NCBI GenBank assembly: GCA_903844775.1
Contig: CAIMUZ010000169.1
Location: forward strand, 1 to 34,777
Source of the DNA: an uncultured Burkholderiales bacterium
Lineage (GTDB): Bacteria > Pseudomonadota > Gammaproteobacteria > Burkholderiales > Burkholderiaceae_C
Direction of reading: 5' to 3'
DNA: 34,777 nt
Shown here: in pieces, positions 1 to 21,774 of the stretch
Layout: each line of letters begins with the position of its first letter
Position numbering within the stretch: the first letter of the stretch is position 1
Program-made: the position numbers and the translations under genes
Notes under the pieces: generated by a model
What the model was told of the DNA's origin: nothing
Seen by the model: only the letters and a program-made list of their open reading frames with translations
Database searches by the model: none

Positions 1-1352
1 AAATTCAGAATCATGTCGAAAATAGCTTTTAGGTTCTCTGGCGGAAGTGCACGTTCTGCACAATCCTCGAATTTATGCCACATTTCTTCTTGCGACATGG
101 GAGATGTGCCACCTCTACCTACCAGTTGATCTATCCGTCGAGATAGCTTGAGTCCGTTTCTTAAATAAACAATAACTTCAGCGCCCCATTGTTCATCCGA
201 GTCATCGGACATATGAGGATGGGGGCGGGCTTGAGTGAGAATAAGTAGATTTTTCACTTCTGGGGATAGAAATGCGTTATCTTCAAAATCACGTAATCTG
301 ACTGATCCACTCAAAAGTGCTCTAACGGTGACATATTGCACGCTGAATTTAGCCTCGAGCGATGTTTCCGGAAAAGGATTATTTGTATGCATCAGTCTCC
401 GACCATGCGGAAGTACTTCAATTTTTTCAATATTTCCTGTAATAATATTTTCCTCTTGGCGCAGTTGAAGCATCATGGTGATGGCTGGATGTGTACTGCC
501 ACAACATGGAAACTGTTTTAGCGCAATGGTATTGCCTTCAATTTCTAACGGCGAAGCCCAATCTTCGAAAAGCTTTTGAGTATCAAATGTGCCTTCTCCA
601 TTAAAAACATTGAAGAAGCCTTGCACATGTTCAAGACTATATGGGTTGGCGTCATACCCTTGTTTGGCCAGAAGTACTGCCAACAAGCCATTTCTTGCAC
701 ATTGACCAACGTGCAAGGGTTTAACCATGGTCCCAAAATTTGCTTTGATACCTGCTGCCATTGAGGCTGCAATTGAAAGGGCCGTTGATGTTTGTTTTAA
801 GTTGAGACTTAAAAGATGTGACAGTGATGCTGTTGCGCCAAAGGTTCCAATTGTTGAAGTGGGATGCCATCCTTTGTCATAGTGATGAAAACCTAGGGCA
901 CGCGCAAATCTAATTTCTACTTCAACGCCAATTATGTAGGCTATCAATACTTGTTCGCCAGAAAAACAATTTTCTTCTGCAACGGCCAACAAAGGCGCCA
1001 TCAATGGCACGGTATGGTGCCCCCCCATGATGCTACTGAAGTCATCGTAATCAAGTGCATGTGAAGCAGTGCCATTGATGAGGGCTGCATCAAGAGCGCT
1101 TGTTTTTCGGTCAGTACCAAATATCCGACATAAGCCCGTTGCACTTGCAACACCTGACGTGTTTCTCAAGAGTAATGAGGCCGGTTCGACAGTGCCAGCA
1201 AGCATCACGCCAACTGCATCCAAAAGGCACATCTTTGCTCGCTCAATAGACAGTGGCGTTAGTTGAGATTTGTCAAAACTCAAAATTTTTTCTGCCAATT
1301 GGGTGGTAAGTCCATCATCCTTTTTGGTGGAGCATTGGGTGATAGTCACCAT
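1..1352 (-). CDS. MmgE/PrpD family protein (partial, runs off left edge)
   Basis: The minus-strand frame is open from an ATG at 1352 to the window edge, giving 450 codons with no stop. That is close to the usual length of about 450-460 residues, so little is missing. The family includes 2-methylcitrate dehydratase and cis-aconitate decarboxylase; this member's substrate is unknown. Visible family motifs are NGTASHALDYDD at about residues 93-104, GWHPTSTIGTFGATAS at 161-176 and a TMVKPLHVGQCARNGLL block at 208-224. The start overlaps the stop of the upstream GntR gene by one base (TAATG), which points to translational coupling. Its job is probably a dehydration or decarboxylation step in the pathway encoded by the divergent genes from 2179 on, under the same regulator. 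Confidence 0.88.
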   Translation of the reverse strand, partial: MVTITQCSTKKDDGLTTQLAEKILSFDKSQLTPLSIERAKMCLLDAVGVMLAGTVEPASLLLRNTSGVASATGLCRIFGTDRKTSALDAALINGTASHALDYDDFSSIMGGHHTVPLMAPLLAVAEENCFSGEQVLIAYIIGVEVEIRFARALGFHHYDKGWHPTSTIGTFGATASLSHLLSLNLKQTSTALSIAASMAAGIKANFGTMVKPLHVGQCARNGLLAVLLAKQGYDANPYSLEHVQGFFNVFNGEGTFDTQKLFEDWASPLEIEGNTIALKQFPCCGSTHPAITMMLQLRQEENIITGNIEKIEVLPHGRRLMHTNNPFPETSLEAKFSVQYVTVRALLSGSVRLRDFEDNAFLSPEVKNLLILTQARPHPHMSDDSDEQWGAEVIVYLRNGLKLSRRIDQLVGRGGTSPMSQEEMWHKFEDCAERALPPENLKAIFDMILN

Positions 1353-2029
1353 TAGGCCCTTAACAGTTGGAGAGTTCGTTCTCTGGCATGTCGAAGATGT
1401 TTTCGCATTGCTATTTCTGCGCCATCTCCATCGCGAGCGTGAATATGTTCAATAATCGAAGTATGTTCTTTTACGCTATCTGCTAGATCGGGCCTCATAG
1501 CGACTTGAAGCCTGTATAAGCGTAAGGGTGAATACACATCCTTAATGAGAATATTTGCAAGCCATAGATTTCGACTTCCAACCGCTATAAGACGGTGAAA
1601 GTCATTGTCTGGCCCCCCACTGAAAACTGTTTCGGCAATATTTCTATTGTTTGATTTCAACATTTCTACTGTTCTCTTGAGTGCGTTGACCTCTGAGACG
1701 GTCATGTTTTCAGCAGCTTGTCGGGCTGCCATACCTTCAAGAGCTTCTCTTGTACTTAATATTTGAGAGAGCTTCTCATTTGATAAGGCAACTACTTGTA
1801 CGCCAGAATGAGGCGTTCGTTCAAGAAGTCCCCTTTCCTCCAAAGTCCGAATTGCCTCTCTAAGGGGCGCTCGGCTTACGCCTAATTCATCTGCAAGTAT
1901 TTGCTCACGCAATCTCTCTCCGGGCCGATAGCGACCACTAAATATCAGTTGTTCTAGTTTTTCCACGACATGGTCACTGAGTACCCGAGTTTCACGTGTT
2001 TGGAAAATTGTGTCATTCATCATTGCCAT
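1352..2029 (-). CDS. GntR family regulator, FCD (FadR) subfamily
   Basis: A 225-residue DNA-binding regulator. The winged helix-turn-helix covers about residues 15-80 (LREQILADELGVSRAPLREAI and the RGLLERTPHSGVQVV wing). The C-terminal FCD ligand domain follows, with the histidines that usually hold a metal in FDFH-like (H145), EHTSII (H189) and KHLRHA (H211) contexts. Effectors in this family are usually small organic acids. It is divergent from the substrate-binding gene at 2179 and coupled to the MmgE/PrpD gene downstream. No Shine-Dalgarno is visible before 2029: the space is filled by a TTGTATACAA operator-like core. The true start may be one of the ATGs at 2023 or 2020. Autoregulation is an inference from that placement. 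Confidence 0.9.
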   Translation of the reverse strand: MAMMNDTIFQTRETRVLSDHVVEKLEQLIFSGRYRPGERLREQILADELGVSRAPLREAIRTLEERGLLERTPHSGVQVVALSNEKLSQILSTREALEGMAARQAAENMTVSEVNALKRTVEMLKSNNRNIAETVFSGGPDNDFHRLIAVGSRNLWLANILIKDVYSPLRLYRLQVAMRPDLADSVKEHTSIIEHIHARDGDGAEIAMRKHLRHARERTLQLLRA

Positions 2030-2178: not shown

Positions 2179-3396
2179 ATGAAAAAATTATTGAAATTTG
2201 CCACCGTTTTGATAGCGGGCGTAATTTCCTTGAGTGCAGTCCACGCACAACAGGCCATCAAAATTGGTGCCATCAACCCTTATTCAGGACCGTTGGCGCT
2301 ATCTGGAAGTGAGGTCACCAGAGGTTATGAACTTGCTGTTGAAGCAGTAAATGGCAAAGGTGGCATTCTTGGTCGTAAGGTAGAGCTAATTAAAGGTGAT
2401 GCAGGAAATCCTCAGCAGGGTATTAGCATTGTTTCTAAGCTTGTCGAGCAAGATAAGGTCGACCTCTTCATGGGTACATATACAAGTGCTGTTTCAAATA
2501 CTGCCAGTGATTCTGCAGCCCGATATAACAAGATCTATTGGGAAACACATGCCTTGTCTGCTGATTTAACAGAGCGAGGACTTTCAAATTTCATACGAAG
2601 TGGCCCAAGTGCTGTTCATTTTGCAGAGACATCAGTTAAAGGCGCACTTGAGATTATTGCCCCTAAGCTGAATAAAAAGTCTGATCAATTGAAAGTCTGG
2701 ATTGAGCATGAGGATTCAGCGTATGGAACTTCAATAGCACAAGCGCAAAAGAAGTTATTTGAAACAGCAGGCGTCAAAGTTCTTGGTGTTGGATCTCATG
2801 CCTTCCGATCGATTGATTTGACTGATTCGATTTTGCGGGCTCGTGCTGCTGCGCCAGATATTTGGGTATCAACTGGCTATGTGCCAGACAGCATTTTATT
2901 GTTGAGGACAATGCGTGATCAGGGATTTGTACCCCCAGCTATTTTGATGCAAGGCACAGGAGACAGTAAGGAATTTCTTGATGCAATGGGCCCATTCATG
3001 GATGGCATCTTTGTGGTTGGATATCCCAATGCAGATCTAGCCCCAAGTTTTGCACCAGGTGCTGCAGCTTTTATGGACGCGTACCGTAAAAAGTTTGGTG
3101 CTGAGCCAATTGCACCTCAAAGCTTAGAAGCTTATGCAATGGCCCATGTTCTTTTTGATGTCATTACAGTTGCCGGTGGAACAGACATGAAAAAAATGAT
3201 TGCTGCTACTTTGGCTATGGATAAACCTGTCTCGACATATCCCAACGGATTTGGCGCAAAGTTTGACGCAAAGATGCAGAATACGAGAGCCAACCCTAAC
3301 ATTACGCAATGGCAAAAGGGTCGCTCAGTCACCATTTACCCAAATAATGCAGCGTCTGCTGGTACCACCATCATTAACATTCCTCGCGCCAAGTGA
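2179..3396 (+). CDS. Branched-chain-type ABC transporter substrate-binding protein
   Basis: A 405-residue periplasmic binding protein of the LivK/Peripla_BP_6 type. The N-terminus is a typical signal peptide (MKKLLKFATVLIAGVISLSA, probable cleavage after AVHA). AGGAG precedes the ATG. The mature protein opens with IKIGAINPYSGPLALSGSEV and carries ELIKGDAGNPQQGI, the fold I ligand region. It is clearly paralogous to the binding protein at 21775-22998 along its whole length, including the YPNGFGAKFDAKMQNTRA tail. No permease or ATPase gene lies next to it, so it may share the LivHMGF set at 18.3-21.7 kb. It heads the rightward gene run and faces the GntR regulator, so it is probably induced by the pathway substrate. 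Confidence 0.93.
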   Translation: MKKLLKFATVLIAGVISLSAVHAQQAIKIGAINPYSGPLALSGSEVTRGYELAVEAVNGKGGILGRKVELIKGDAGNPQQGISIVSKLVEQDKVDLFMGTYTSAVSNTASDSAARYNKIYWETHALSADLTERGLSNFIRSGPSAVHFAETSVKGALEIIAPKLNKKSDQLKVWIEHEDSAYGTSIAQAQKKLFETAGVKVLGVGSHAFRSIDLTDSILRARAAAPDIWVSTGYVPDSILLLRTMRDQGFVPPAILMQGTGDSKEFLDAMGPFMDGIFVVGYPNADLAPSFAPGAAAFMDAYRKKFGAEPIAPQSLEAYAMAHVLFDVITVAGGTDMKKMIAATLAMDKPVSTYPNGFGAKFDAKMQNTRANPNITQWQKGRSVTIYPNNAASAGTTIINIPRAK

Positions 3397-3548: not shown

Positions 3549-4598
3549 ATGACTTTACAAAAGGGTTGGGTCGCAGATGACCTCAAAAATAATACTCAAT
3601 GGATTCACACCCTCTCTGAGTCAGAGTTAAAAGACATAGAAAAGGCTTTGTCGCGTGCTCGCGATGCAGGTGAGACATTTGAAACTTTGACAAGGGAAAA
3701 TTTCCATTTATCAAGTTTAAAGCCTACTTTCGACCGTGTTCTAAATGAATTGGAAAATGGACTAGGCTTTTATGTCGTCAGAGGTTTGCCTGCTGAAAAA
3801 TATACAAAAGATGAATTGCGCCTCATGTATTGGGGTATGGGCAAGCACCTAGGCACCGCTGTTACACAAAGTAACAGAGGTGACATGCTGGGTGATGTGA
3901 GAGATTTTGGCGTTGATACCTTCAGTAAGAAGGGACGTGGCTATATGTCCAAACAACACCTTCAATTCCATTCAGACACGTGCGATGTTGTGTGCCTCAT
4001 GGTGTTACGAGTTGCAAAGGCTGGTGGTTTAAGTCGTTACTGTAGTTCTATTGCTATACACAATGAAATTGAAAGTAAGCGACCTGACCTGTTGGAGGCG
4101 CTTTATAGCCCCTTTTATATGAGTTGGAAGGGGCAGGAGCTTAAGGGAGAAAAGCCATATTACCTGCAACCTGTATTTTCCAAAGAGCAAGAAAAATTTG
4201 CTTCTCGATTTATCCCTCAACATATTATTGGACATGGTGTTGAGCATTCACAACATCCTGAATTACCAATGCTATCAGCTTTGCAAAAGGAAGCTATAGA
4301 GTACGTAGAGTTATTGGCAAATGATCCTAGATTTTACGGGGAGATGATGTTTCAGCCGGGTGATATGCAGTTCATGAATAACCATGTGATGTATCACTCG
4401 CGAACTGAATTTGAAGATTTTCCAGAGCAAGATAAAAAAAGACATTTGTTGCGCATGTGGCTCTCTGTTCCTAACAGCAGAGTACTAAACGAATCTATGT
4501 ATGCCATTTACCGCAAGCGACAGCCAGGTGACGTACGAGGCGGGTTCCCGTGTGAAACAGGCGAATTGGTTTTTGAAACGCCGGTTATCACTGATTAA
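3549..4598 (+). CDS. TauD/TfdA-type Fe(II)/2-oxoglutarate dioxygenase
   Basis: A 349-residue member of the taurine/2,4-D dioxygenase family, which couples 2-oxoglutarate decarboxylation to hydroxylation of an organic acid. The iron-binding facial triad is visible: H141-x-D143 in LQFHSDTCD, and H283 in NNHVMYHSRTEF. The 2-oxoglutarate-binding Arg is expected in KRHLLRMWLS (R298 or R302). The ATG at 3549 was chosen because GAGGA at 3536-3540 lies 8 bases upstream; an in-frame TTG at 3534 overlaps that ribosome site and is unlikely. It follows the binding-protein gene by about 150 bases and precedes a CoA ligase by 19 bases. An oxidative attack before or around CoA activation is plausible, but the substrate is unknown. 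Confidence 0.88.
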   Translation: MTLQKGWVADDLKNNTQWIHTLSESELKDIEKALSRARDAGETFETLTRENFHLSSLKPTFDRVLNELENGLGFYVVRGLPAEKYTKDELRLMYWGMGKHLGTAVTQSNRGDMLGDVRDFGVDTFSKKGRGYMSKQHLQFHSDTCDVVCLMVLRVAKAGGLSRYCSSIAIHNEIESKRPDLLEALYSPFYMSWKGQELKGEKPYYLQPVFSKEQEKFASRFIPQHIIGHGVEHSQHPELPMLSALQKEAIEYVELLANDPRFYGEMMFQPGDMQFMNNHVMYHSRTEFEDFPEQDKKRHLLRMWLSVPNSRVLNESMYAIYRKRQPGDVRGGFPCETGELVFETPVITD

Positions 4599-4617: not shown

Positions 4618-6306
4618 ATGAACGAATCTACCAAAAGTTTTCTTTTAGCACGTGACTTATTGCAAAAACATCGAATTAACTATCTAGCAGGATGTGCCGA
4701 ATTTAAGTGGCCTGAACTCTCGCATTTTAATTGGGCTCTAGATTATTTTGATTTAATTACAAGCCCAAATTCTAGAGCACTTTCGATCGTTCAAGATGAT
4801 GGCTCACAAGAAAATTTTACCTTTTCACAACTCTCAGTTAGATCTAACCAAGTTGCAAATTGGTTTAAAGGTTTAGGTATTAAACGAGGTGATCGTGTGC
4901 TGCTGATGTTGGGAAACCAGAAGGAGCTCTGGGAGTCAATGTTGGCTTTGATGAAAGTGGGCGCAGTATTGATTCCCACAACCACTTTGCTAGATCAGAA
5001 TGACATGCAGGATAGAGTAGATCGAGGTCATGTTCGGCACGTGATCTGTAATCCGGATGCGATCGCTAGATTAAACAAAGTGACGGGAGATTTCACTCGA
5101 ATTTTGATTGGAAGGGAAGAGAATTGGCACTCATTTTCGGAATCGCATAATGAACCGGCTGTCTTCAATCCTGATACAGCTACTAAAGCAACCGATCCCT
5201 TGTTGCTTTACTTCACATCTGGTACTACATCTAAACCAAAGATAGTCCTTCATAGCCATCAAAGTTATCCAGTTGGGCACTTGTCCACCATGTTCTGGAC
5301 AGGTTTAAGACCAGATGATATTCATTTGAATATATCTTCGCCGGGCTGGGGTAAACATGCGTGGAGTAGTTTCTTTGCACCTTGGAACGCTGGCGCTTGC
5401 ATTTTCATTTATAACTATTCACGCTTCAAAAGCGTTGATCTTCTGAACGTACTTGTCGAGCATGGCGTGACAAGTTTGTGTGCACCTCCAACTGTTTGGA
5501 GAATGTTGATACAAGAAACCCTCTCTAATTGGCCCGTCAAGCTAAGAGAAGTTCTGGGTGCAGGAGAGCCTCTTAATCCAGAAGTTATAGAGCAAGTCAA
5601 GACTGCATGGGGGCTTACCATTCGAGATGGTTTTGGTCAAACTGAAACAACTTGTGCAATTGGTAACTCACCAGGGGAAACCATTAAATTTGGAAGTATG
5701 GGTAAGCCAATGCCAGGTTATCCAGTCGTTCTTCTTGATTTAGAAGGCCAAGTTTCAGATGAAGGTGAAATTTGCTTCGATCTTTCGAATCGACCACTGG
5801 GTCTCATGGATGGCTATTTTGGAGATGCAGAAAAAACAGCTGATGCAATGCGTGACGGTTACTACCATACTTGCGACGTAGCTTCAAGGGATAAAGATGG
5901 ATACATCACCTATGTTGGTAGATCTGATGATGTGTTTAAAAGCTCTGATTACAGATTGAGTCCCTTTGAACTTGAATCTGTTTTGATGACACACCCTGAT
6001 ATTGCTGAAACTGCAGTCATACCGAGTCCCGATGCACAAAGGCTCAATGTTCCAAAAGCGTTCATCGTGCTTCGTTCCGGTGTGCTACCAGATCGGAATG
6101 CGGCCCTGTCAATCTTGCGTTTTGCGCGAGAGCATCTTGCACCCTATAAACGTGTGCGTCGAATTGAATTCGCTGAATTGCCAAAAACGATATCTGGAAA
6201 AATTAGACGATCTCAGTTACGGACGATAGAAAATCAAAACATAAAAACTGGCATTAGAGATATCAATGAATATTGGGAAGAGGACTTTCCAGAGCTCTTT
6301 GCTTAA
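4618..6306 (+). CDS. AMP-binding acyl-CoA synthetase (ANL superfamily)
   Basis: A 562-residue ATP-dependent acid:CoA ligase. The ATP-binding P-loop YFTSGTTSKPK is at 198-208, GFGQTETT at 338-345, the adenosine-binding Asp in YHTCDVASRDKDGY (D420), the hinge GRSDDVFKSSDYRLSP at 434-449, and the C-terminal catalytic Lys in KTISGKIRR (K528). The overall pattern, with GWGKHAWSSFFAPW, resembles medium-chain/acetyl-CoA synthetase-like ligases rather than the aromatic type. The ATG at 4618 was preferred to an in-frame ATG at 4501 that lies inside the dioxygenase gene and adds 39 unrelated residues. It probably activates the acid substrate of the left block, or the product of the dioxygenase. Confidence 0.92.
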   Translation: MNESTKSFLLARDLLQKHRINYLAGCAEFKWPELSHFNWALDYFDLITSPNSRALSIVQDDGSQENFTFSQLSVRSNQVANWFKGLGIKRGDRVLLMLGNQKELWESMLALMKVGAVLIPTTTLLDQNDMQDRVDRGHVRHVICNPDAIARLNKVTGDFTRILIGREENWHSFSESHNEPAVFNPDTATKATDPLLLYFTSGTTSKPKIVLHSHQSYPVGHLSTMFWTGLRPDDIHLNISSPGWGKHAWSSFFAPWNAGACIFIYNYSRFKSVDLLNVLVEHGVTSLCAPPTVWRMLIQETLSNWPVKLREVLGAGEPLNPEVIEQVKTAWGLTIRDGFGQTETTCAIGNSPGETIKFGSMGKPMPGYPVVLLDLEGQVSDEGEICFDLSNRPLGLMDGYFGDAEKTADAMRDGYYHTCDVASRDKDGYITYVGRSDDVFKSSDYRLSPFELESVLMTHPDIAETAVIPSPDAQRLNVPKAFIVLRSGVLPDRNAALSILRFAREHLAPYKRVRRIEFAELPKTISGKIRRSQLRTIENQNIKTGIRDINEYWEEDFPELFA

Positions 6307-6351
6307 CTCTGATGAGTCAGAAATAAGATTCCCCCATTCACTGAAATAAAG

Positions 6352-7740
6352 ATGAATTCAAATAAATTAAGCATCAATGTATTAGTGCCAATTGGGGCCT
6401 TGGGACTTGGAGTCGATGCGGGTGATATTGTGCGTGGTGTTCAATTAGGTGCGCATGCTATTGCATGTGACGCTGGATCAACTGACAGCGGACCAGCTTA
6501 TTTGGCTACAGGTGTTTCAAAATATTCGCGTGCCGCAATTAAAGCTGATTTGCTAATTTTAATGCGTGCTCGTCATGATGCTTCCATTCCATTATTGATT
6601 GGTTCCTGTGGAACTTCAGGGTGTGACAAGGCACTTGAATGGACGCGTGATATTGCGATTGAAATTGCACTTGAACTTGGTCAGCAACCCAAAATTGCGG
6701 TTATTTATTCCGAACAAGAACCTCAACTTATGGCCAGTTTTGCTAAAAAAGGCAGAATGGATGTGCTGCCGCCTAATGAGACGATTGAGCCTGAACTCTT
6801 TAGCGTCTGCGATCACATTGTTGCCTTGATGGGTCCTGAGCCTTATATAGCTGCTTTGAAGGAGGGGGCAGATATTGTTCTTGGCGGACGCACAACGGAT
6901 ACTGCTGTGCTTGCAGCGGTCCCCCTAATGTTGGGAGCGGGTGCTGGACCAGCTTGGCACGCTGCCAAAATTGCAGAATGTGGCGCATTGTGTGCAACAA
7001 GGCCAAGAGAAGGCGGTGTGCTTATTAGGGTTGGCCTTAATAGTTTTGATGTTGAGCCACTTAGACCGACCAACAGTTGCACTCCACATACTGTATCTGC
7101 ACATATGCTTTATGAGAACAGTAATCCCTTTCTGTTGTATGAGCCCGGTGGCGTGTTGGATGTCTCGAAAGCAAATTACTTGGCCATTGATGAGCGAACG
7201 GTGAGGGTGACAGGGTCTACTTTTACTGTTATGCCATACACCATGAAGCTAGAAGGTGCTGCTAGGGGCGGTTGGCAAACAATAATGCTGGTAGGTATTC
7301 AAGACCGGAAAGTTTTAGCGAATATCGATATTTTTCTCAATAGAATGCACGAAGTCTTGACAGCCTTGGTCAATAAGGCCATGGGATCATCTGCAGGTAA
7401 TTTTCACATTTCACTACGTCCTTATGGTTGGAATGCGATCAGCGGACTCCCTGTTGGTAAGCAGGTTGTACCGCCTCAAGAAATTGGCTTACTTTTTATT
7501 GCCACAGCGCAAACGCAAGAGCTTGCTACTCAAATTGCTAAAACTTGCAATCCTTGGTTCTTCCATCTTCCGCTTGAAGAGTCACAGGGCCTTCCAAGTT
7601 ATGGTTTTCCATTTTCACCAGCTGAATTAGAGCGTGGTCAAGTTTTTGAATTCAAACTGAATCATATTGTTCGAGTTGCTGATGGATTTGAACTGGTACG
7701 ATTTAAATATGTCGATTGGAAGGCGCACGCACTTGCCTAA
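6352..7740 (+). CDS. AtuA-like (DUF1446 / acyclic terpene utilization) family protein
   Basis: A 462-residue protein of the family named after AtuA of the Pseudomonas citronellol pathway, whose biochemical role has not been settled. Typical features are the opening PIGALGLGVDAGDIVRGVQLG, CDAGSTDSGPAYLATG, IGSCGTSGCDKA and the ADIVLGGRTTDTAVLA segment at about 175-190. It is longer than the right-block relative at 16961-18292 (443 residues) and shares the layout rather than close sequence. Its last 32 bases overlap a DUF4387 gene, a partner arrangement that suggests the two proteins act together. It sits between the ligase and the SDR/aldehyde dehydrogenase genes, so a step on a CoA thioester or hydroxy-acid is plausible but unproven. 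Confidence 0.87.
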   Translation: MNSNKLSINVLVPIGALGLGVDAGDIVRGVQLGAHAIACDAGSTDSGPAYLATGVSKYSRAAIKADLLILMRARHDASIPLLIGSCGTSGCDKALEWTRDIAIEIALELGQQPKIAVIYSEQEPQLMASFAKKGRMDVLPPNETIEPELFSVCDHIVALMGPEPYIAALKEGADIVLGGRTTDTAVLAAVPLMLGAGAGPAWHAAKIAECGALCATRPREGGVLIRVGLNSFDVEPLRPTNSCTPHTVSAHMLYENSNPFLLYEPGGVLDVSKANYLAIDERTVRVTGSTFTVMPYTMKLEGAARGGWQTIMLVGIQDRKVLANIDIFLNRMHEVLTALVNKAMGSSAGNFHISLRPYGWNAISGLPVGKQVVPPQEIGLLFIATAQTQELATQIAKTCNPWFFHLPLEESQGLPSYGFPFSPAELERGQVFEFKLNHIVRVADGFELVRFKYVDWKAHALA

Positions 7741-8041
7741 ATTAGAAGACTTGTGCCATCAAATTCGATCCAAAAATGCAGGTCCTTTTTGGATAACAGT
7801 GGATCTTTTCTTTAAAGATCGGGCAACTTTCGATCGTTATTCTGAAGTTAAAGAGTTGCAGCCAGATCAGTTGGGACCATTGTTTGGCGTGCGCGTTGAT
7901 CAAGTTAGTTGCTATCTGGTACCTGAACTTTCGGTTTTAAAAATTTCTTATCCACGCAAGGATCCGCAGGGGGGCGTGGTGGAGAGAGATCTACATGGTG
8001 GCCAGCAATACATCCGAATCGTTGATCTGGAACTAAGTTGA
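7709..8041 (+). CDS. DUF4387 family protein
   Basis: A 110-residue protein matching the DUF4387 pattern: IRSKNAGPFWITVD at about 19-32, a DLFFKDRATFDRY segment, then PRKDPQGGVVERDLHGGQQY and a terminal IVDLEL. The function is unknown. Such proteins are commonly found beside AtuA/DUF1446 proteins. The ATG at 7709 gives the usual short N-terminus before the IRSKNAGP motif and overlaps the AtuA-like gene by 32 bases; upstream in-frame ATGs at 7667 and 7682 would lengthen it inside that gene. The overlap argues for co-translation with the AtuA-like protein, probably as the small subunit or partner. Confidence 0.82.
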   Translation: MSIGRRTHLPKLEDLCHQIRSKNAGPFWITVDLFFKDRATFDRYSEVKELQPDQLGPLFGVRVDQVSCYLVPELSVLKISYPRKDPQGGVVERDLHGGQQYIRIVDLELS

Positions 8042-8155: not shown

Positions 8156-9157
8156 ATGAGAAATCAACATCATTTAATAAAAGATCAATCTTTTCTAATC
8201 ACCGGGGGGGCTAGTCTTGTGGGCTCTCATATCGCTGATGAATTACTAGCACAAGGTGCAAAAGAGGTACGGCTGTTTGATAATTTTTCCCTAGGTACTA
8301 CATCGGCTATTGCTCACCTTCTTAATAATCCTCGGGCGCCGCTAATTCGAGGAGATGTACTTCGAATGAATGAACTCATAGACGCTGCAAAAGGTGTGGA
8401 TGGCGTTTTTGCGATGGCAGGCTTCCTAACGATTCCAATGGCCAAAGATCCTGTGCTAGGAGTTTCAGTCAACACAATGGGGATGGTCAATACATTAGAA
8501 GCTTGCCGAATCAATGGTGTGAGACGCATTGTTTTTTCATCTTCGGTGGCAACTTACGGTAACCCTATTGCAACACCTGTTGAGGAAGCTGCACCTTATC
8601 GTTATGAAGCTCTCCAACCGCCATCCTTGTTGTATGGTGCAAGTAAGCTCATGGGGGAAGCTTTATGCGCCCAGTATTCAAAAGCTTATGGACTTGAATT
8701 CAATGTACTTCGTTTTTCTTCAGTTTATGGGGAACGTCAGCATGCGAGAGCACTTAATGCTGTTTTTGTCGCTCAAGTCTGTGACAAAGTTAGAGCTGGT
8801 CTGGCGCCAGTCATTGGTGGTGATGGCAGTGAGGTTCACGACTATGTTTACGTCACTGATGTTGCACAAGCGTGTGCACTTGCCATGACCAGTTACTCGC
8901 ATGGACATATCCTGAATATTGCAACCGGGATTGATACAACCCATACTGCTGTTGCAGAAATTGCTTTAAAGATATGCGGGCGCACGGACCTTAAGCCTAA
9001 ATATCAAGCAGACACTAGAACGGTTAAGCCTGCTGCGGGTTCAGTACTGGGATTTAGTCGCGAAGCCGCTAAAAACAATATTGATTGGGAGCCAAAGGTA
9101 GACATTCAATCTGGAATTACAAGATTGATTGAATGGCAGAAAAAAGTTTCACATTAG
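8156..9157 (+). CDS. NAD-dependent epimerase/dehydratase family (extended SDR)
   Basis: A 333-residue extended short-chain dehydrogenase. The nucleotide-binding TGGASLVG is at 16-23, the catalytic Ser in FSSSVATYG (about 128-131), and the YxxxK pair in LLYGASK (Y160, K164). The C-terminal half contains LRFSSVYGERQH and the GDGSEVHDYVYVTDVA block typical of sugar-nucleotide epimerase-like enzymes. Here it lies among catabolic genes, 16 bases before an aldehyde dehydrogenase, so it more likely oxidises a hydroxyl group or isomerises a pathway intermediate than makes sugars. That reading comes from context. AGAGAAAG upstream of the ATG may serve as ribosome site. Confidence 0.88.
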   Translation: MRNQHHLIKDQSFLITGGASLVGSHIADELLAQGAKEVRLFDNFSLGTTSAIAHLLNNPRAPLIRGDVLRMNELIDAAKGVDGVFAMAGFLTIPMAKDPVLGVSVNTMGMVNTLEACRINGVRRIVFSSSVATYGNPIATPVEEAAPYRYEALQPPSLLYGASKLMGEALCAQYSKAYGLEFNVLRFSSVYGERQHARALNAVFVAQVCDKVRAGLAPVIGGDGSEVHDYVYVTDVAQACALAMTSYSHGHILNIATGIDTTHTAVAEIALKICGRTDLKPKYQADTRTVKPAAGSVLGFSREAAKNNIDWEPKVDIQSGITRLIEWQKKVSH

Positions 9158-9172: not shown

Positions 9173-10651
9173 ATGACAAATCTGAATATCAAGGCTTTTC
9201 AAATCGGCGGTAAGTGGATTGGAGATGACGTTCGGCGTGAGGTTATCACTTCAATTGATCCTGCTGATGGTAGCGTAGCTGGTATTGTGAGTCGAGCCCT
9301 TCCTTCGGACGTTGACGAAGCAGTTGAAATTGCATCGCAGGCTTTCAAAAATAAACCTTGGAGGAAACTACGTCCAGATCAGCGAGCCACGACCTTGTAT
9401 ACGATAGGTTCACGATTATTGGCAGAACGTGAATCATTGGCTAAACTTCAAATGAACGACAGCGGAAAACCTTGGAAGGAATGCTTGAACATGGTCGACA
9501 TGGCAGCAGGCAACTTCCGATACTACGCGGCAGTTTGTGAGACTTGGCAAAATGAAGTGACATCCCCCCGCGGTGATTATTTTTCCATGGCAATGGCAGA
9601 GCCATTTGGTGTAGTTGCAGCTATTACGCCTTGGAATTCTCCGTTAATCAGCGAATCTCAAAAAATTGCACCAGCACTAGCCGTTGGAAATGCTGTTTTA
9701 CTGAAGCCCTCTGAAGAGACGCCTCAACTTGCAATTGAGTTGGGACGTATTTGTTCTGAATCCGGATTGCCTGAAGGATTGCTCACTGTTTTGCCAGGTT
9801 ACGGAGAGGATGTTGGTGCTGCTTTGGTCAATCATCCTGGCGTAAGAATGATTTCATTTACTGGAGGAACAGATACGGGACGTATCATTTCGTCATCTGC
9901 GGGTCGACGTTTGATACCCGTCGGCATGGAGCTTGGGGGTAAGTCCCCCCACATTGTTTTTGAAGATGCTGACTTAGATAAAGCTGTAGCTGGCGTGCTT
10001 TCCGGAATTTTTGGATCTGCAGGTCAAAGTTGTGTCGCTGGTTCTCGCTTGTTTGTACAAAAATCAATTTATCAGAAATTTATCAAAGAACTGGTAGAAA
10101 GAACAGCCAAAATTCGTGTTGGTCTGCCCAGTGATTTAACAACTCAGATGGGGCCCGTCATTTCAGAAGCACACCGCCAAAAAATTGCATCCTATGTTGA
10201 TATTGGTCGTGCCGAAGGTGGGCAGATATTAACAGGTGGTCGAATTCCAGATATTCCAGCATTAAAAAATGGATGGTTTTATATGCCAACCATCATTGAT
10301 GGCTTAAACAATTCAGCACGTATCTGTCAAGAAGAAATCTTTGGCCCCGTACTTGTGGCACTTCCATTTGAAAATGAGGAAGATGTAATTTTGCAAGGCA
10401 ACGATTCAGTCTTTGGCTTGGCCGCTGGCATATGGACTTCCGATTACTCTCGTGCATGGCGTATTGCTCGCGAACTCGAGGCTGGCTCTGTTTGGATCAA
10501 TACTTACAAGCAATCGCATATTGCTACACCTTTTGGCGGCTTTAAAGACAGTGGCATAGCAAGGGAAAAGGGGTTGCATGGACTTCGGCTTTACAGCCAA
10601 GTGAAAAGTATTTTTTGGGGCATGCATTCAAATCCAATACAACTTGGTTAA
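9173..10651 (+). CDS. NAD(P)-dependent aldehyde dehydrogenase
   Basis: A 492-residue enzyme of normal family length that oxidises an aldehyde to an acid. Visible residues are ITPWNSPL with the oxyanion Asn (N155), LLKPSEETP with the cofactor Lys (K178), FTGGTDTG at 229-236, the general base in MELGGKSP (E253) and the nucleophile in GQSCVAGSR (C287). The C-terminal EEIFGPVL and PFGGFKDSG blocks are present. The gene follows the extended SDR by 16 bases and precedes a classical SDR by about 60. Alcohol-to-aldehyde-to-acid oxidation by these neighbours is a reasonable inference. The specific aldehyde cannot be told. Confidence 0.94.
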   Translation: MTNLNIKAFQIGGKWIGDDVRREVITSIDPADGSVAGIVSRALPSDVDEAVEIASQAFKNKPWRKLRPDQRATTLYTIGSRLLAERESLAKLQMNDSGKPWKECLNMVDMAAGNFRYYAAVCETWQNEVTSPRGDYFSMAMAEPFGVVAAITPWNSPLISESQKIAPALAVGNAVLLKPSEETPQLAIELGRICSESGLPEGLLTVLPGYGEDVGAALVNHPGVRMISFTGGTDTGRIISSSAGRRLIPVGMELGGKSPHIVFEDADLDKAVAGVLSGIFGSAGQSCVAGSRLFVQKSIYQKFIKELVERTAKIRVGLPSDLTTQMGPVISEAHRQKIASYVDIGRAEGGQILTGGRIPDIPALKNGWFYMPTIIDGLNNSARICQEEIFGPVLVALPFENEEDVILQGNDSVFGLAAGIWTSDYSRAWRIARELEAGSVWINTYKQSHIATPFGGFKDSGIAREKGLHGLRLYSQVKSIFWGMHSNPIQLG

Positions 10652-10714: not shown

Positions 10715-11485
10715 ATGTCTAAAACACCTAATTTCTTTGTAGGGAAAACCATTTTTATTACGGGTGCAGGAGGGGGAATAGGACGTTCGGCAGCGCTTAT
10801 TTTTGCCCGTGAAGGTGCCAATATTGTTGTGACAGACATTGATGAATCAGCAGCAATTGCAACAGCTAATTTAGTTAAAGAAAAAGGAAAAGAAGCCCTT
10901 GCAATTACAGTAGATGTCGCATCTCGAGCAAGCATTGACAATGGCATGAAGCTTGCCACAAACAGATTTGGCCGCGTCAATTTTTTATTTAACTCAGCAG
11001 GTGCTGCAGTAGCGCGGAGTAAGTTTCTGGACATTACCGATCAACTCTTGGAAAAAACATTGGCCATCAATCTGTATGGGACCTACTATGCAATGCAGGC
11101 TGTTTTACCCCATATGTTAGAGCGAGGTGGTGGTGTGATTGTGAATGTCTCCTCTATGACTGCAAAAAGAGGTGGCCCTGGAACATCGGTTCACTATGCC
11201 GCAGCAAAAGGTGCTGTAGATTCAATGACCATGGGTGTTGCGCGTGAATTTGCTGATCGCAACATTCGTTGTCTTTCAATTTCGCCTGGACCTGTCAATA
11301 CTCAGTTTCAAGCCGCTTCTAATTCGCCACCTGAATTTATGCAACGCGCTATTGCTGACGTCCCTATGAAACGAGCTGCTGAAGCAGACGAAATCGCTGA
11401 ATTGGTTCTTTTCATGTGCTCTGATGCGTGCGAATATATGACTGCCAATACCGTTTATGTCAACGGGGGCGGGGGATTCAGATGA
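10715..11485 (+). CDS. SDR family oxidoreductase
   Basis: A 256-residue classical short-chain dehydrogenase/reductase. The cofactor motif TGAGGGIG is at about 16-23, NSAG (the NNAG position) at 91-94, catalytic Ser in NVSSMT and YAAAK with Tyr and Lys at about 160-164. An Asp after the second strand (VVTDID) suggests preference for NAD. It is the last gene of the rightward block and ends about 80 bases before the tRNA-like scar. The gap upstream, 10652-10714, is very AT-rich and holds no clear signal. Its role is probably oxidation of a hydroxyacyl intermediate. Confidence 0.92.
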   Translation: MSKTPNFFVGKTIFITGAGGGIGRSAALIFAREGANIVVTDIDESAAIATANLVKEKGKEALAITVDVASRASIDNGMKLATNRFGRVNFLFNSAGAAVARSKFLDITDQLLEKTLAINLYGTYYAMQAVLPHMLERGGGVIVNVSSMTAKRGGPGTSVHYAAAKGAVDSMTMGVAREFADRNIRCLSISPGPVNTQFQAASNSPPEFMQRAIADVPMKRAAEADEIAELVLFMCSDACEYMTANTVYVNGGGGFR

Positions 11486-11602: not shown

Positions 11603-11634
11603 AAAAGCCACTGATTTTGGTCAGTGGCTTTTTT
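11603..11634. terminator. Strong bidirectional hairpin terminator
   Basis: AAAAGCCACTGA at 11603-11614 pairs perfectly with TCAGTGGCTTTT at 11621-11632 around the loop TTTTGG, followed by two more Ts. Because the stem is flanked by As on the left and Ts on the right it can work in both directions, closing the rightward block and the long leftward operon. Hairpins of this form directly after CCA are typical of tRNA genes, which supports the tRNA reading of 11562-11596. Confidence 0.85.
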
Positions 11635-13085: not shown

Positions 13086-14693
13086 TTATGCGGGAAGTGA
13101 TTTCAGCAACTGATCACGCATGTCTCGCTTGACAAGCTTGCCATTGGCATTGCGGGGTAGCGGCGTGGTTGAGATGGTGAAACTCTCTGGCACTTTGTAA
13201 TCCGACAACCGGATGCGACAGAACTCACGCAATTCAATTTCAAAATCGCCCGGCGTTTTAAGCATGACAAAAGCATGAACGCGCTCTCCCAACACAGGGC
13301 ATGGCTTAGAGACCACCGCGCACTCTTGCACAGCAAAATGTGCATAGAGCGCATTTTCGACCTCGATGGTGTAGATTTTGTAGCCGCCTCGGTTGATCAT
13401 GTCTTTTTTTCGATCGACCACCTTGACGTACCCATTGGCATCAATAGAGCCGATGTCGCCCGAATGCCAAAAGCCTGCGGTGAAGTTTTCTTGGGTAGCC
13501 TCAGGATTTTCCCAGTAGCCTGGCACCACCTGCGGGCCTTTGATCCAAATTTCGCCCAACACATTGGCCGGCGCTTCACATCCGTTGTCGTCTATCACGC
13601 GCATTTCAACGCAGCCTAAGGGCATGCCCACGGTATCGTTGTGTGCAGTAGTTTGACCAGGTGGCATCAAGGTCGAAGGTGATGTGGTTTCGGTCGAACC
13701 ATAACAGTTCATGAGCATTAGGGTGGGAACAGTTTTCGCCAAACGTTCAATGGTGGCCACTGGCATAGGTGCACCACCAAAAGCACCAATGCGCCAACCG
13801 GATAAGTTGTAGCTGTCAAAGTCATTTTGCAAAAGGCACAGGTTGTACATGGCCGGCACCATCAGAGTGTGGGTCATGGCCTCCTTCTCCGCCAATTTAA
13901 GAAATTCGGCCGCCTTGAAGCTGGGCATGATGACCAACTTGCCCGCCGCCAGCGTAAAGGTGGTGATCATTGCGATCAAGCCCGTCACATGACTCAATGG
14001 CACAGCGGCAATGGAGTTGTCGTGCTTGCCCAGGCTCATGGCAATTTGATAATGCAGTGAGGAATGCACGATGCTCAAATGCGTCAGCATGGCGCCCTTG
14101 GGCCGGCCCGTGGTACCAGAGGTGTAGAGAATGACCGCTGTATCTTCCTGCGCCACCGCTGCCACGGGCGGGCATTCTCCGTCTTCTAGCAACTGCTCAT
14201 ACAGCTTAGAGCCCTGGCAAGGCGCCATGGACACACGGTGCTGCAAGTTCGGTGCGTCTTGCGCCGATGGCAACAAGCTAGCCAAGTCAGCTTCATGGAT
14301 CACCATCACTGCCGCGCAGTGCGACAACATATAGGCCAAGCCTGGCGCTTGTTCGCGAATGCTAATGGGCACGGCGATGGCACCCAAATGCGCCAACGCA
14401 AAGAGAGTGACGACAAATTCATTGCGGTTACCCAACAACATGGCCACTCGATCACCGACTTTGACGCCGCGCTTGGAAAGACCTGTCGCCAGGCGCGAAG
14501 ACTGCTGCTGCAACTGTGCATAGCTGAGTCGATCGGCACCACAAATCAAGGCATCGCCCTTGGCATTTTGTGCGACGGCATGTTCCAGGAGTTGATACAA
14601 ATTGCTTGGGCGATCTTGAAAACACGGAACAACACGATCCCCGTAATGCGATTCCAGGCGCATAACTGGCCAGAGATTTTCCCAATCGTTCAT
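13086..14693 (-). CDS. Acyl-CoA ligase (AMP-dependent synthetase)
   Basis: A 535-residue ANL-superfamily ligase. The P-loop YTSGTTGRPKG is at 190-200, NCYGSTETT near 334-342, WHSGDIGSIDANGYVKVVDRKKD with the adenosine-binding Asp, INRGGYKIYTIEVE hinge, and the C-terminal Lys in NANGKLVKRD. The pattern is that of long-chain/aromatic acid ligases. The start overlaps the phosphotransferase-like gene by four bases (ATGA). It is a second ligase type compared with the one at 4618-6306, so the two blocks probably activate different acids, or the same acid at different stages. Confidence 0.94.
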   Translation of the reverse strand: MNDWENLWPVMRLESHYGDRVVPCFQDRPSNLYQLLEHAVAQNAKGDALICGADRLSYAQLQQQSSRLATGLSKRGVKVGDRVAMLLGNRNEFVVTLFALAHLGAIAVPISIREQAPGLAYMLSHCAAVMVIHEADLASLLPSAQDAPNLQHRVSMAPCQGSKLYEQLLEDGECPPVAAVAQEDTAVILYTSGTTGRPKGAMLTHLSIVHSSLHYQIAMSLGKHDNSIAAVPLSHVTGLIAMITTFTLAAGKLVIMPSFKAAEFLKLAEKEAMTHTLMVPAMYNLCLLQNDFDSYNLSGWRIGAFGGAPMPVATIERLAKTVPTLMLMNCYGSTETTSPSTLMPPGQTTAHNDTVGMPLGCVEMRVIDDNGCEAPANVLGEIWIKGPQVVPGYWENPEATQENFTAGFWHSGDIGSIDANGYVKVVDRKKDMINRGGYKIYTIEVENALYAHFAVQECAVVSKPCPVLGERVHAFVMLKTPGDFEIELREFCRIRLSDYKVPESFTISTTPLPRNANGKLVKRDMRDQLLKSLPA

Positions 14694-15724: not shown

Positions 15725-16617
15725 CAGTCCCACCATGGGTAAAAGTTGGGCATGTCGGAGGCGAGCGTTTGATAGTTGGGGTTGCGTTTTTCCAGGAAGG
15801 CCTTCACGCCCTCCTTGCCATCTGACATGCTGGTGTAAAAAATGCCAAGTGACTCTACCTTGTGCGCTTGCATCGGATGGTCGGCGGCGGCATTGCGATA
15901 CATCATCTGCCGAATCAGAGCCACCGAAACCGGCGACCTGGCCGTGGTGAAACTGGCAGCAACTTTCGAAGCTTCGGCAAGCAATTGATCGGGTTCGCAC
16001 AAGCGACTTACCAAGCCCGCTTGCAATGCCACTTGCGCATCAAATATTTCACCGCTGAGTGTCCATTCGAGTGCCTTGGGCAGTCCCACCACGCGAGGTA
16101 AAAACCAACTGGCACAAGCATCTGGCACGATACCAATCTTGCCAAAGACAAACCCAAAACGCGATCGGGTCGATGCCAATCGAACATCGCACGGCAAGGT
16201 GAGCGTAGCGCCAACGCCAACTGCCACACCATTGATGGCCGCAATCAAAGGCTTTTTGCAATCAAACATGGCCAACACCACACGGCCACCGGTGTCACGG
16301 ACACCCTTCACAAAAATTGGATCGTCTATCCGTTCATTCATATCCTGCAAGGTGGGCTGGAGGCTTTCGTCCAACCCAAACACATTGGCTTGCCCCTCTC
16401 CTTCCAAATCCATGCCCGCACAAAATGCTTTGCCATCTCCTGTTATGACGACGGCCTTCACCGCATCGTCTTCACTGGCTTGTTGAAAGGTTTGGATTAA
16501 CTCCTCTGCCATGTTGACAGTGAAGGCATTCATGCGAGCGGCTCGGTTGAGCTTGACTGTCAAGATGCCTTCGACCAATTGGCACTCAATGTCGCGCCAT
16601 GTTGTGTGCCAACTCAT
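15724..16617 (-). CDS. Enoyl-CoA hydratase/isomerase family protein
   Basis: A 297-residue crotonase-family protein. The first oxyanion segment is GKAFCAGMDLEG, the second AAINGVAVGVGATL. The region that carries the first catalytic Glu in classical hydratases reads FVFGKIGIVPDACASWFLPR, the variant of a known subfamily, while the second position is kept in KALEWTLSGE. So hydratase, isomerase or hydrolase activity are all possible. The C-terminal tail with EKRNPNYQ is typical. It overlaps the AtuA-C-type gene by four bases and the phosphotransferase-like gene by one, so translation is coupled. Confidence 0.9.
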   Translation of the reverse strand: MSWHTTWRDIECQLVEGILTVKLNRAARMNAFTVNMAEELIQTFQQASEDDAVKAVVITGDGKAFCAGMDLEGEGQANVFGLDESLQPTLQDMNERIDDPIFVKGVRDTGGRVVLAMFDCKKPLIAAINGVAVGVGATLTLPCDVRLASTRSRFGFVFGKIGIVPDACASWFLPRVVGLPKALEWTLSGEIFDAQVALQAGLVSRLCEPDQLLAEASKVAASFTTARSPVSVALIRQMMYRNAAADHPMQAHKVESLGIFYTSMSDGKEGVKAFLEKRNPNYQTLASDMPNFYPWWD

Positions 16618-16964
16618 GATGATGCCTCGCTATTGTGTAAGCGAAGGACCAATGTTTGGGGATCAATGTCTAAATCTAGAAGCAACCAGATGGCTGCCTT
16701 TTGCCAATGCAGGCCTGGGCGCAGCGTGGCATAGACCCCTCCGCCCAACGCCTCTGGCATCACAAACTTGAGCGCTTTCAATCCTGGCAAGTCATAGCGC
16801 AAGACAGGGCCAGGCACGACCTTGTTCAGCATGTGTTGAACAGCGTGGACACTTAAAGCTTGGCTCATCAAACTGAAAGACGCATCGTCTGCGGCCACCA
16901 ATGTCAGATCCAACATGTCGCCTTTGTCGCCAGCGCGTCCTACAGCAATGTCACCCACTCTCAT
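16614..16964 (-). CDS. AtuA C-terminal-domain-like small protein
   Basis: A 116-residue protein matching the C-terminal domain of full-length AtuA proteins: VGDIAVGRAGDKGD near the start, then VLRYDLPGLKALKFVMPEALGGG and a TLRPG-x-x-W-x-K segment. The ATG at 16964 makes a four-base ATGA overlap with the AtuA-like gene and has GGAG six bases upstream; a TTG at 16976 inside that gene is an unlikely start. Together with the neighbouring 443-residue protein it rebuilds the two-domain AtuA as two polypeptides. The role is unknown. Confidence 0.85.
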   Translation of the reverse strand: MRVGDIAVGRAGDKGDMLDLTLVAADDASFSLMSQALSVHAVQHMLNKVVPGPVLRYDLPGLKALKFVMPEALGGGVYATLRPGLHWQKAAIWLLLDLDIDPQTLVLRLHNSEASS

Positions 16965-18292
16965 GACTGGCTCCAAAGTAATTGAGTTTTAACCAGTGCA
17001 GGGTCAATGAAACCATCGAGCACCTCGATGCGATTGCGTTTTTCACTTCGCACACTGCAACCCCCTGCCGGACCGGACAGCGTCAGTGCATAAACTTCAT
17101 CTTCAATCTGCTGCGATATTTCAGCATCTTGGCAGCGTGCGGACACATGCACGCGAAGTTCAGCTGGCGGTGGTGCTGACAAAGAACCGGCACGCAAAAT
17201 GGCATTGACGCCCACCAAATCGATGGCGATATCCTCATCGGCCCAATCTGACAGCCTCATGCGCAGTGCATCGGCAGCACGTTTGGCGCGTTCCCATGCG
17301 CCGGTTCCAGCAAATCCAATTTCGCAATCCACGATAAAACCTGGCAACTCAATGAAGCCAGCCACTTTCAAAGTGGGGGGCGGCCCTGAAGTTCGCGCGC
17401 CAGACATACGAATTATGTTGTGACCTATTTGTTCAAAGCGAATACCACTGAAATCTAGCACCAGGTCAGGGGTTGCATAGCGTGAAGGGTCATGCACCTC
17501 ATAAAGCAATTGCAAGGTGCATGTGAGCGCATCGATAATCGCCGGCGCGCCATCTAAGACAGTAATGTCTGCGCTGCCGTCCGCATAAACAAGCGCCAGT
17601 GGATATCCCAAAGTCGCAAAGTCTGCAGCGGACAATGGATTGCCAGGGTGAGGACCGCCCAAGGTGTCGTAGTTGCCACCTGTGAGTTGACCGCCGCATT
17701 CCAATAAATGACCCACGGTCAAAGCGCCAGCCAACGCATTGGGGTCTGAATTTAAGAACTGACGCACAGGTGCCGCAAACAAGGCGGAGTCGGCGACGCG
17801 CCCAGTGACCACCACATCAGCGCCAGCCTCGAGTGCTTCCGCCATGGGCACACAACCCAAATAGGCATGCGCACCAATCAATTTGCCCGTCACAGGTTTA
17901 ACCCACTTCACCTTGTCGGCCATAGCAATCACATCGTCACCTTCTACGGCTGCGACTTTCAAACCCGAGACTCCCAAACCTTTGGCCAATTGTGCAATGG
18001 CCATGCCCGCAGCACGCGGATTGGCAGCCCCCAAGTTAGAGATGATCTTGCACCCAGTGCTGGCGGCAGCAGGCAGAAGTGGGGTTAAGCGTCGACGCAA
18101 GCGCGGATCGGCACCGGCTTCTGGATTGTCGGCCCGGGCTTTGATGGCGGGGACCAAAGTCCGTTCAGCCAAACATTCCAAGGCCACCGCATCAACTTTT
18201 CCCGATGCGGCCAAAGCCACGGCCGGATCGACTCGGTCACCCGCAAATCCGGCACCCGAGCCAATGCGATACACAGGTTTATGAGGATTCAA
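16961..18292 (-). CDS. AtuA-like (DUF1446) family protein
   Basis: A 443-residue protein corresponding to the large N-terminal domain of AtuA. Features are RIGSGAGFAGDRVDPA at 9-24, ALECLAERTL, ISNLGAANPRAAG, GADVVVTGRVADSALF near 175-190 and QLTGGNYDTLGGPHP. The apparent start is TTG at 18292 with AAGG eight bases upstream; the alternative GTG at 18274 lacks a ribosome site. It follows LivF by 40 bases and overlaps its small partner at 16614-16964. It is a distant relative of the left-block protein at 6352-7740. In the citronellol pathway atuA accompanies a geranyl-CoA carboxylase, which is not present here, so a terpene substrate is not established. Confidence 0.88.
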   Translation of the reverse strand: MNPHKPVYRIGSGAGFAGDRVDPAVALAASGKVDAVALECLAERTLVPAIKARADNPEAGADPRLRRRLTPLLPAAASTGCKIISNLGAANPRAAGMAIAQLAKGLGVSGLKVAAVEGDDVIAMADKVKWVKPVTGKLIGAHAYLGCVPMAEALEAGADVVVTGRVADSALFAAPVRQFLNSDPNALAGALTVGHLLECGGQLTGGNYDTLGGPHPGNPLSAADFATLGYPLALVYADGSADITVLDGAPAIIDALTCTLQLLYEVHDPSRYATPDLVLDFSGIRFEQIGHNIIRMSGARTSGPPPTLKVAGFIELPGFIVDCEIGFAGTGAWERAKRAADALRMRLSDWADEDIAIDLVGVNAILRAGSLSAPPPAELRVHVSARCQDAEISQQIEDEVYALTLSGPAGGCSVRSEKRNRIEVLDGFIDPALVKTQLLWSQS

Positions 18293-18332: not shown

Positions 18333-19049
18333 TTAAAGACCCATGTAAGAGCGTTGCACGACAGGGTCGTTCAATAAATCTTTACCACGACCTGTCTTCA
18401 AAATCCCGCCATGTTCGATGATGTAGCCGCGTTCGCACACCCTGAGCGCATTGCCCACGTTTTGCTCCACCAGCAACACTGACAAGCCTTTGGTCTTCAC
18501 CAAGCTTGTCACCATCTCAAACACTTTATCCACAATGATGGGCGCCAGCCCTAAAGATGGCTCATCCAACATCAGGAGTTTAGGCATGGACATCATGGCG
18601 CGAGCGATTGCACACATTTGCCTCTCGCCACCCGACAATCGCCCTGCAAGTTGTTCGCGCCTGTCGGCCAAAATGGGAAACAAGCCCATGACCTCTTCCA
18701 GGGACTCGTTCATGCGACCTCGAGCTTTGGGGTGATAAGCCCCAAGTTCAAGATTTTCCAAAACAGTCATGAAGGGAAATAATCGACCCCCTTCAGGCAC
18801 CATCACTAAGCCATGTTCTGTGGCTTCATGCGCAGGCAACTTGGTGATGTCTTGGCCATCAAACTTAAGACTACCTAATCGCACTTTGAGGTGGCCACAG
18901 ATGGACAGTAACAAGGTGGTTTTACCCGCACCATTAGCGCCCACCACCGACACTATTTCGCCATGACCCACCTCCAGGCTCAAGTCATCAAGCACAGGCA
19001 ATTCACCATAGCCCGAGCTGAGCTTGTCAACTTGCAATATCGCGCTCAT
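18333..19049 (-). CDS. livF: Branched-chain-type ABC transporter ATPase LivF
   Basis: A 238-residue ATPase. Walker A is GANGAGKTT near residue 37, the signature is LSGGERQM, Walker B is LLMLDEPSLGLAP, and the switch His lies in LLVEQNV-type context (Gln before Asn as usual for LivF). Start and stop fit LivF length. It overlaps LivG by four bases. With LivG it should form the cytoplasmic ATPase dimer that powers LivH-LivM import. Confidence 0.95.
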   Translation of the reverse strand: MSAILQVDKLSSGYGELPVLDDLSLEVGHGEIVSVVGANGAGKTTLLLSICGHLKVRLGSLKFDGQDITKLPAHEATEHGLVMVPEGGRLFPFMTVLENLELGAYHPKARGRMNESLEEVMGLFPILADRREQLAGRLSGGERQMCAIARAMMSMPKLLMLDEPSLGLAPIIVDKVFEMVTSLVKTKGLSVLLVEQNVGNALRVCERGYIIEHGGILKTGRGKDLLNDPVVQRSYMGL

Positions 19050-21697: not shown

Positions 21698-21720
21698 GAT
21701 CCACTTTCAATTATTGGATC
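21698..21720 (-). promoter_or_regulatory. Inverted repeat abutting the LivH start codon
   Basis: On the minus strand GATCCA (21720-21715) and TGGATC (21703-21698) pair around an 11-base loop, ending directly before the ATG at 21697. The only ribosome-site-like bases (AAGTGGA) fall inside the hairpin, so it could lower LivH translation relative to the binding protein. The stem is short, so this is tentative. Confidence 0.3.
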
Positions 21721-21774
21721 AGCCACCCCAGCTGCAAAGCAAGCAAGGGTGAACTGAAACGAAGTCGACTCTAA

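Follow-up and report, generated by a model that had tools for sequence, protein, structure and literature searches.

Two AtuA-family gene pairs with different small partners in a Burkholderiales contig: putative two-subunit carbon-carbon lyases related to citramalate lyase

The window, i.e. the whole 34,777-nucleotide stretch of DNA analyzed here, comes from an uncultured Burkholderiales bacterium and belongs, as contig C169, to a genome bin of 2.52 Mb that is 78% complete. Two convergent runs of genes meet near 11.6 kb (Table 1). The plus run, referred to as operon 1, is ordered LivK-type binding protein, TauD, CoA ligase, CmlA-like AtuA, DUF4387, epimerase family protein, aldehyde dehydrogenase and short-chain dehydrogenase, and contains the first of two large/small gene pairs (pair 1). 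The minus run contains pair 2 and, in transcription order, includes five Liv-type genes, AtuA, AtuA-C, enoyl-CoA hydratase, an APH-family gene, CoA ligase, MaoC and a short-chain dehydrogenase. Operons were assigned from gene order. Minus-strand genes run on upstream of the Liv importer as far as position 34204, and HyuA/HyuB genes (hydantoinase/oxoprolinase family) are located at 29683-33467 on the same strand.

Table 1 Genes and other features of the window.
Feature	Position	Strand	Basis and remarks
GntR/FCD regulator	1352..2029	-	Pfam GntR + FCD; divergent from operon 1; 68% identity with its counterpart at L065, a Ramlibacter MAG locus
LivK-type periplasmic binding protein	2179..3396	+	PF13458, 168 bits; first in plus run; no L065 match
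TauD-type Fe(II)/2-oxoglutarate dioxygenase	3549..4598	+	PF02668, 117 bits; listed from TTG 3534, in-frame ATG 3549; 71% identical in L065
AMP-forming acyl-CoA ligase, operon 1	4618..6306	+	PF00501, 194 bits; listed from ATG 4501, in-frame ATG 4618
Large subunit, CmlA-like AtuA family (DUF4387 type)	6352..7740	+	PDB 9erq_A, E 7e-68; 462 aa
Small subunit, DUF4387 (CmlB-like)	7709..8041	+	PF14330, 101 bits; PDB 9erq_B, E 6e-12
NAD-dependent epimerase/dehydratase family protein	8156..9157	+	PF01370, 153 bits
Aldehyde dehydrogenase	9173..10651	+	PF00171, 544 bits
Short-chain dehydrogenase, last of plus run	10715..11485	+	PF13561, 204 bits
Terminator-like stem, 12 pairs, between convergent runs	11603..11632		Consensus match only
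AMP-forming acyl-CoA ligase, minus run	13086..14693	-	PF00501, 295 bits; 85% identical copy on contig C212
Small subunit, AtuA-C / AtuA ferredoxin-like	16614..16964	-	PF23544, 59 bits (ORF 16614-16976); ATG at 16964
Large subunit, canonical AtuA	16961..18292	-	PF07287, 352 bits, nearly whole length
Five Liv-type ABC importer genes upstream of pair 2	18333..22998	-	ABC_tran, BPD_transp_2 and Peripla_BP_6 matches

The TauD protein matches PDB entries 7N7V ('Predicted hydroxylase') and 5EQN (FrbJ), and the best PDB match of the operon 1 ligase is 8BIQ, a 4-hydroxybutyrate-CoA ligase. Terminator-like matches such as the stem between the two runs are about as frequent in the scanned stretch as in shuffled sequence (25 versus a shuffle mean of 19.7, sd 3.9). 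The GC content changes from 43-44% across most of operon 1 (window positions 1-10000) to 50-53% in the minus run (15001-30000), a hint that the two gene blocks differ in origin.

The two overlapping pairs, an AtuA-like gene with DUF4387 and an AtuA gene with AtuA-C, were first proposed in a preliminary description of this DNA, and both are corroborated by Pfam matches and by the overlaps of start and stop codons, with the second pair placed on the minus strand. The DUF4387 reading frame of pair 1 was listed from TTG 7667; an in-frame ATG at 7709 leaves a 32-nt overlap with the large gene. In pair 2, the AtuA-C start codon overlaps the AtuA stop codon as ATGA. The pair 1 large protein matches PF07287 weakly, in two pieces, with 76 bits (cut-off 22.8). 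If full-length PF07287 together with PF23544, in one gene or in adjoining genes, is taken to define an AtuA + AtuA-C system, pair 2 belongs to it and pair 1 does not. Pair 1 instead shows the features of a CmlAB-type system, namely CmlA homology over approximately the full length and a directly adjoining DUF4387 gene on the same strand. The genome bin contains four large/small pairs, with PF14330 on contigs C169 and C180, PF23544 on C169 and C212, and PF07287 beside all four. The C180 pair (L047, 3876-5613) has the reversed order, its DUF4387 gene preceding the large gene; its neighbors are an aconitase-like gene, a GntR/UTRA regulator, a short-chain dehydrogenase and a Liv importer. The C212 block (L048, 3026-6326) is a diverged copy of the AtuA/AtuA-C/ligase genes of the window, with encoded proteins that are 92, 85 and 85% identical. 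The DNA identity of these two blocks is 79.7% over 1637 bases; a LigB-type dioxygenase gene and a NuoF-like gene are likewise found on contig C212. Apart from the 92% identity to this copy in its own genome, pair 2 AtuA shares 32-41% identity with eight of the nine other aligned sequences.

The preliminary description asked whether DUF4387 and AtuA-C are mutually exclusive neighbors of DUF1446 genes, and two surveys support this. The first took in 249 genomes of the phylum, with that of the window among them; 48 contain PF07287, 17 PF14330 and 33 PF23544. Merging of profile matches less than 1,000 bases apart reduced 65 PF07287 matches to 55 genes, each of which has exactly one partner (AtuA-C 37, DUF4387 18, both 0, none 0), and no stand-alone small domain was found in these genomes. 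The second survey covered 25 further genomes, those among the 80 loci described below whose titles name taxa outside Pseudomonadota, all of them picked for holding the DUF4387 type. Here 57 matches merged into 52 AtuA genes, of which 50 have one partner (DUF4387 28, AtuA-C 22), none has both and two have neither; of these two, one is a profile match ending at position 408 of 437 and the other a 53-position fragment. None of the 105 small-domain matches of the two surveys is more than 1,500 bases away from an AtuA match. DUF4387 is thus tied to DUF1446, with 46 of 46 DUF4387 matches beside an AtuA gene, rather than occurring mostly away from it, which had been named beforehand as the outcome that would speak against the proposal. 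Both types occur in two of the 48 AtuA-bearing genomes, the window's own and G054, on different contigs in G054 and on one contig in the window.

The best 80 of at least 564 relatives of the DUF4387-type large subunit, a set biased toward the window's relatives, were collected as named loci and their neighbors counted by tblastn. In all 80, DUF4387 is on the same strand and downstream of the large subunit, with 977 extra bases between the two genes at one locus (L100), and in none of the 80 is there an AtuA-C match (tblastn, E 1e-8). As judged by eye from equal open-frame lengths for both domains in the phylum survey, 17 of the 37 AtuA-C cases and one of the 18 DUF4387 cases are fusions; of the best 80 loci, none was flagged as an AtuA-DUF4387 fusion. 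A natural fusion of a CmlA-like protein with DUF4387 is seen in genome G217 (L055) as a single 697-residue stop-to-stop frame from 8357; on visual inspection, the order of its segments seems to differ from that of the window protein. Judged by the surveys, the association of large and small genes is far beyond chance. Viral contigs scanned for canonical AtuA and for the CmlA type yielded no relative.

A tree of 78 large-subunit sequences, which took in 46 of the 80 named loci and in which long branches were flagged, separates 10 canonical from 68 DUF4387-type sequences with support of 100/100. Within the latter, the pair 1 large subunit falls in a 57-row clade (99/99), and 9erq_A, discussed below, in a separate 10-row clade (100/99); the C180 large subunit groups with this CmlA clade, on a long branch, and not with pair 1. 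The canonical and DUF4387-type profiles align with each other at E 2e-23, and the canonical AtuA profile finds 9erq_A at E 3e-10. Eleven positions are invariant in the 10 canonical and 67 DUF4387-type rows (window numbers G161, G179, R180, D183, E209, C210, Y254, E255, P259, K299 and G359; the fused G217 row is omitted from these counts). In addition, K206 and H251 (67/67) and G87 (66/67) of the DUF4387 type are replaced by H, Q and N, respectively, in 10/10 canonical rows. The invariant residues are candidates for a shared active site, and the three exchanged positions are candidates for a split in specificity. A large-subunit match in Ramlibacter albus (L067, 10001-11395, tblastn) has an in-frame stop codon and was omitted from the alignments.

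Both genes of pair 1 match PDB entries 9ERQ and 9EVF, the chains of which are named citramalate lyase subunits A and B, with DUF4387 corresponding to CmlB; the title of 9EVF reads 'Citramalate lyase - ADP - pyruvate complex'. An AlphaFold2 model of the pair 1 large subunit (pLDDT 93.2) superposes on 9evf_A over nearly its whole length (Foldseek E 7.8e-47, TM 0.89), and no other chain is matched at an E of 0.001 or lower. The pair 1 protein is 32% identical to 9evf_A and 34% identical to an E. coli protein; the latter and the aligned part of 9erq_A share 92% identity. The E. coli pair is located between the genes for methylaspartate ammonia-lyase and a class I fumarase, together with a symporter gene. 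A DUF1446 gene is described at this locus in PMC4682846, where the fate of citramalate is called unclear. In the literature collection searched, no paper on CmlAB or on DUF4387 was found. The proposal that the window holds a candidate undescribed catabolic system is not supported, since such a complex has been deposited as CmlA/CmlB and an AtuA-like two-gene lyase, ThnQS, is reported in a review (PMC12016498). The kind of enzyme is already known; what would be new in pair 1 is its clade, its operon and its likely substrate.

The match of both subunits to 9ERQ and the superposition over nearly the whole length would also fit an ordinary citramalate lyase that catalyzes the same reaction as CmlAB, and the composition of a large AtuA-family chain and a DUF4387 chain is common to both. 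This reading is nevertheless improbable. Pair 1 lies outside the clade of the characterized CmlA, its identity to 9evf_A and the E. coli protein is limited to the 32-34% given above, and neither glutamate mutase nor methylaspartate lyase nor fumarase/mesaconase is present among the 30 window ORFs scanned, so that the genes expected of a citramalate lyase in the narrow sense are not nearby; the operon provides TauD, a CoA ligase and an aldehyde dehydrogenase instead. Because of the different clade, the low identity and the different operon, the substrate of pair 1 probably differs from that of citramalate lyase. On the basis of the same identity and clade, even the reaction class could have changed.

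As its name and known chemistry imply, citramalate lyase cuts between the carbon that carries a tertiary hydroxyl and the carbon alpha to a free carboxylate group. With a probability of roughly two in three, both pairs of the window may be two-subunit carbon-carbon lyases of the DUF1446/AtuA family that work on this plan. The reaction that we infer would convert R1R2C(OH)-CHR3-COO- into a ketone, R1R2C=O, and a free acid, CH2R3-COO-, as in the conversion of citramalate to pyruvate and acetate by CmlAB and, as a tentative case, in the formation of a 3-oxoacyl-CoA and acetate by AtuA. The large subunit would carry most of the catalytic residues, and the small subunit, DUF4387 on one sister branch and AtuA-C on the other, would be a homologous and obligatory partner. 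A nucleotide may activate the carboxylate, a guess prompted by the ADP in the title of 9EVF. The DUF4387 pair would use a product formed by the operon with the TauD dioxygenase and the CoA ligase; the substrate of the AtuA-C pair would be a 3-hydroxyacyl-CoA supplied by the neighboring ligase and hydratases. That both pairs instead hydrate, dehydrate or isomerize branched hydroxy acids might be considered, as aconitase-like, MmgE/PrpD and citrate-synthase-like neighbors in some genomes handle the same acids. It is unlikely, as the two family members found with a stated reaction, CmlAB by its PDB name and title and ThnQS in the review, are both lyases.

The carbon-carbon lyase reading bears on AtuA itself, for which two papers differ. 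One (PMC4847356) tentatively assigns to it the cleavage of 3-hydroxy-3-isohexenylglutaryl-CoA to 3-oxoacyl-CoA and acetate, and in the other (PMC4097962) LiuE, rather than AtuA, is credited with the isohexenylglutaryl-CoA lyase step. The tentative assignment involves the same cut as that of citramalate lyase and of ThnQS as the review describes it. The homology of canonical AtuA to the citramalate lyase family favors AtuA as a lyase of this kind. A solved citramalate lyase is now linked to a protein with two competing assignments, and the testable prediction is that AtuA would be an acetate-releasing lyase. Pair 2 shares with AtuA of the Atu system the canonical AtuA plus AtuA-C make-up. It differs in that two separate genes are present, that a Liv importer and an APH-family gene adjoin, and that geranyl-CoA carboxylase genes, which would define an Atu operon, are absent from the window ORFs scanned. 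This agrees with the earlier remark that the terpene-pathway carboxylase is missing from the window: the Pfam scan found no carboxylase gene among the 30 window ORFs, and five PF01039 carboxyltransferase matches are located on other contigs of the bin. ThnQS, which the 2025 review (PMC12016498) presents from 'unpublished results', is an AtuA-like two-gene lyase from the anaerobic breakdown of naphthalene. Once a hydratase has acted on a CoA ester, it is said to cut next to a tertiary hydroxyl and a carboxylate. By this description it resembles the window pairs in having two AtuA-like gene products, and differs from them in that its operon belongs to an anaerobe.

The idea that DUF4387 and AtuA-C are interchangeable small subunits of one enzyme type stands in part. 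Alignment of profiles from 18 DUF4387 and 22 AtuA-C sequences by hhalign gave a collinear match over 107 columns with a probability of 94%, E 1.1e-7 and a score of 47.1. The reverse direction scored 40.5 and a reversed profile 10.7, and none of 100 column shuffles exceeded 17.9; after rotation, the AtuA-C alignment scored 21.9-45.6, as expected where a local match outlives the rotation. A second pair of alignments gave 90% over 77 columns. Judged from the profiles, the two are probably remote homologues, so that two Pfam entries, DUF4387 and 'AtuA ferredoxin-like', come out as one small-subunit family on two sister large branches. That they are unrelated folds which converged on one partner role is improbable: the conserved motifs do differ, R-S-K-x-A-G (x = N, S or D) in DUF4387 and R-x-G-D-K-G in AtuA-C, the AtuA-C profile matches no PDB chain, 9erq_B included, at E up to 10, phmmer with a single AtuA-C sequence against PDB finds weak, unrelated chains (E 0.12 and worse) and not 9erq_B, and the single-sequence AlphaFold2 model of AtuA-C, at pLDDT 38, was discarded, but against this stand the collinear 107-column match, well above its shuffled and reversed controls, and the size, gene position and partner family that DUF4387 and AtuA-C share. 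As far as sequences tell, the two are alternative small subunits that are not freely interchangeable, because each type stays with its own large-subunit branch across the 100/100 split. A role of the small gene as a redox ferredoxin was dropped, as AtuA-C has no conserved cysteine.

The large subunit of pair 1 is 72% identical to one at a locus of a Ramlibacter MAG (L065). This locus lacks the LivK-type gene and keeps the order regulator, TauD, ligase, large subunit and small subunit at 68-73% identity; the ligase is 73% identical, with the alignment starting at residue 38. Among the best 80 of at least 564 relatives, it is the only locus that matches the window TauD. A more specific and doubtful scheme for operon 1 is an 'oxidize and clip' route that replaces carboxylase plus hydratase. 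TauD would directly hydroxylate the tertiary carbon of a beta-branched acid; acetate, or a homologue, would then be clipped off by the CmlA-like/DUF4387 lyase to leave a ketone for the dehydrogenases. If true, this route, whose regulator, TauD, ligase and both lyase subunits have counterparts in the Ramlibacter MAG, would be a novel means of getting past a branched carbon.

Carboxylate transporters are frequent near DUF4387-type pairs, with TctA at 28 and CitMHS at 15 of the best 80 of at least 564 loci and no overlap between the two, as raw counts. For transporter-linked DUF1446 operons, the general guess would be a lyase that acts at a tertiary alcohol beside a carboxylate. Raw counts over the same best 80 loci are five for aconitase-like, four for citrate-synthase-like and six for MmgE/PrpD genes. 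A Cupriavidus plasmid has a citrate-synthase-family gene beside AtuA, DUF4387 and tripartite transporter binding proteins, a Variovorax plasmid the order AtuA, DUF4387, MmgE/PrpD, and a Spirosoma plasmid a citrate symporter, canonical AtuA and a small hypothetical gene. Cleavage of itatartarate by loci with glycerate-type genes would be a speculation. HyuB is found at six and HyuA at five DUF4387-type loci of the best 80 of at least 564; in Cupriavidus (L153), HyuA and HyuB come directly after a pair.
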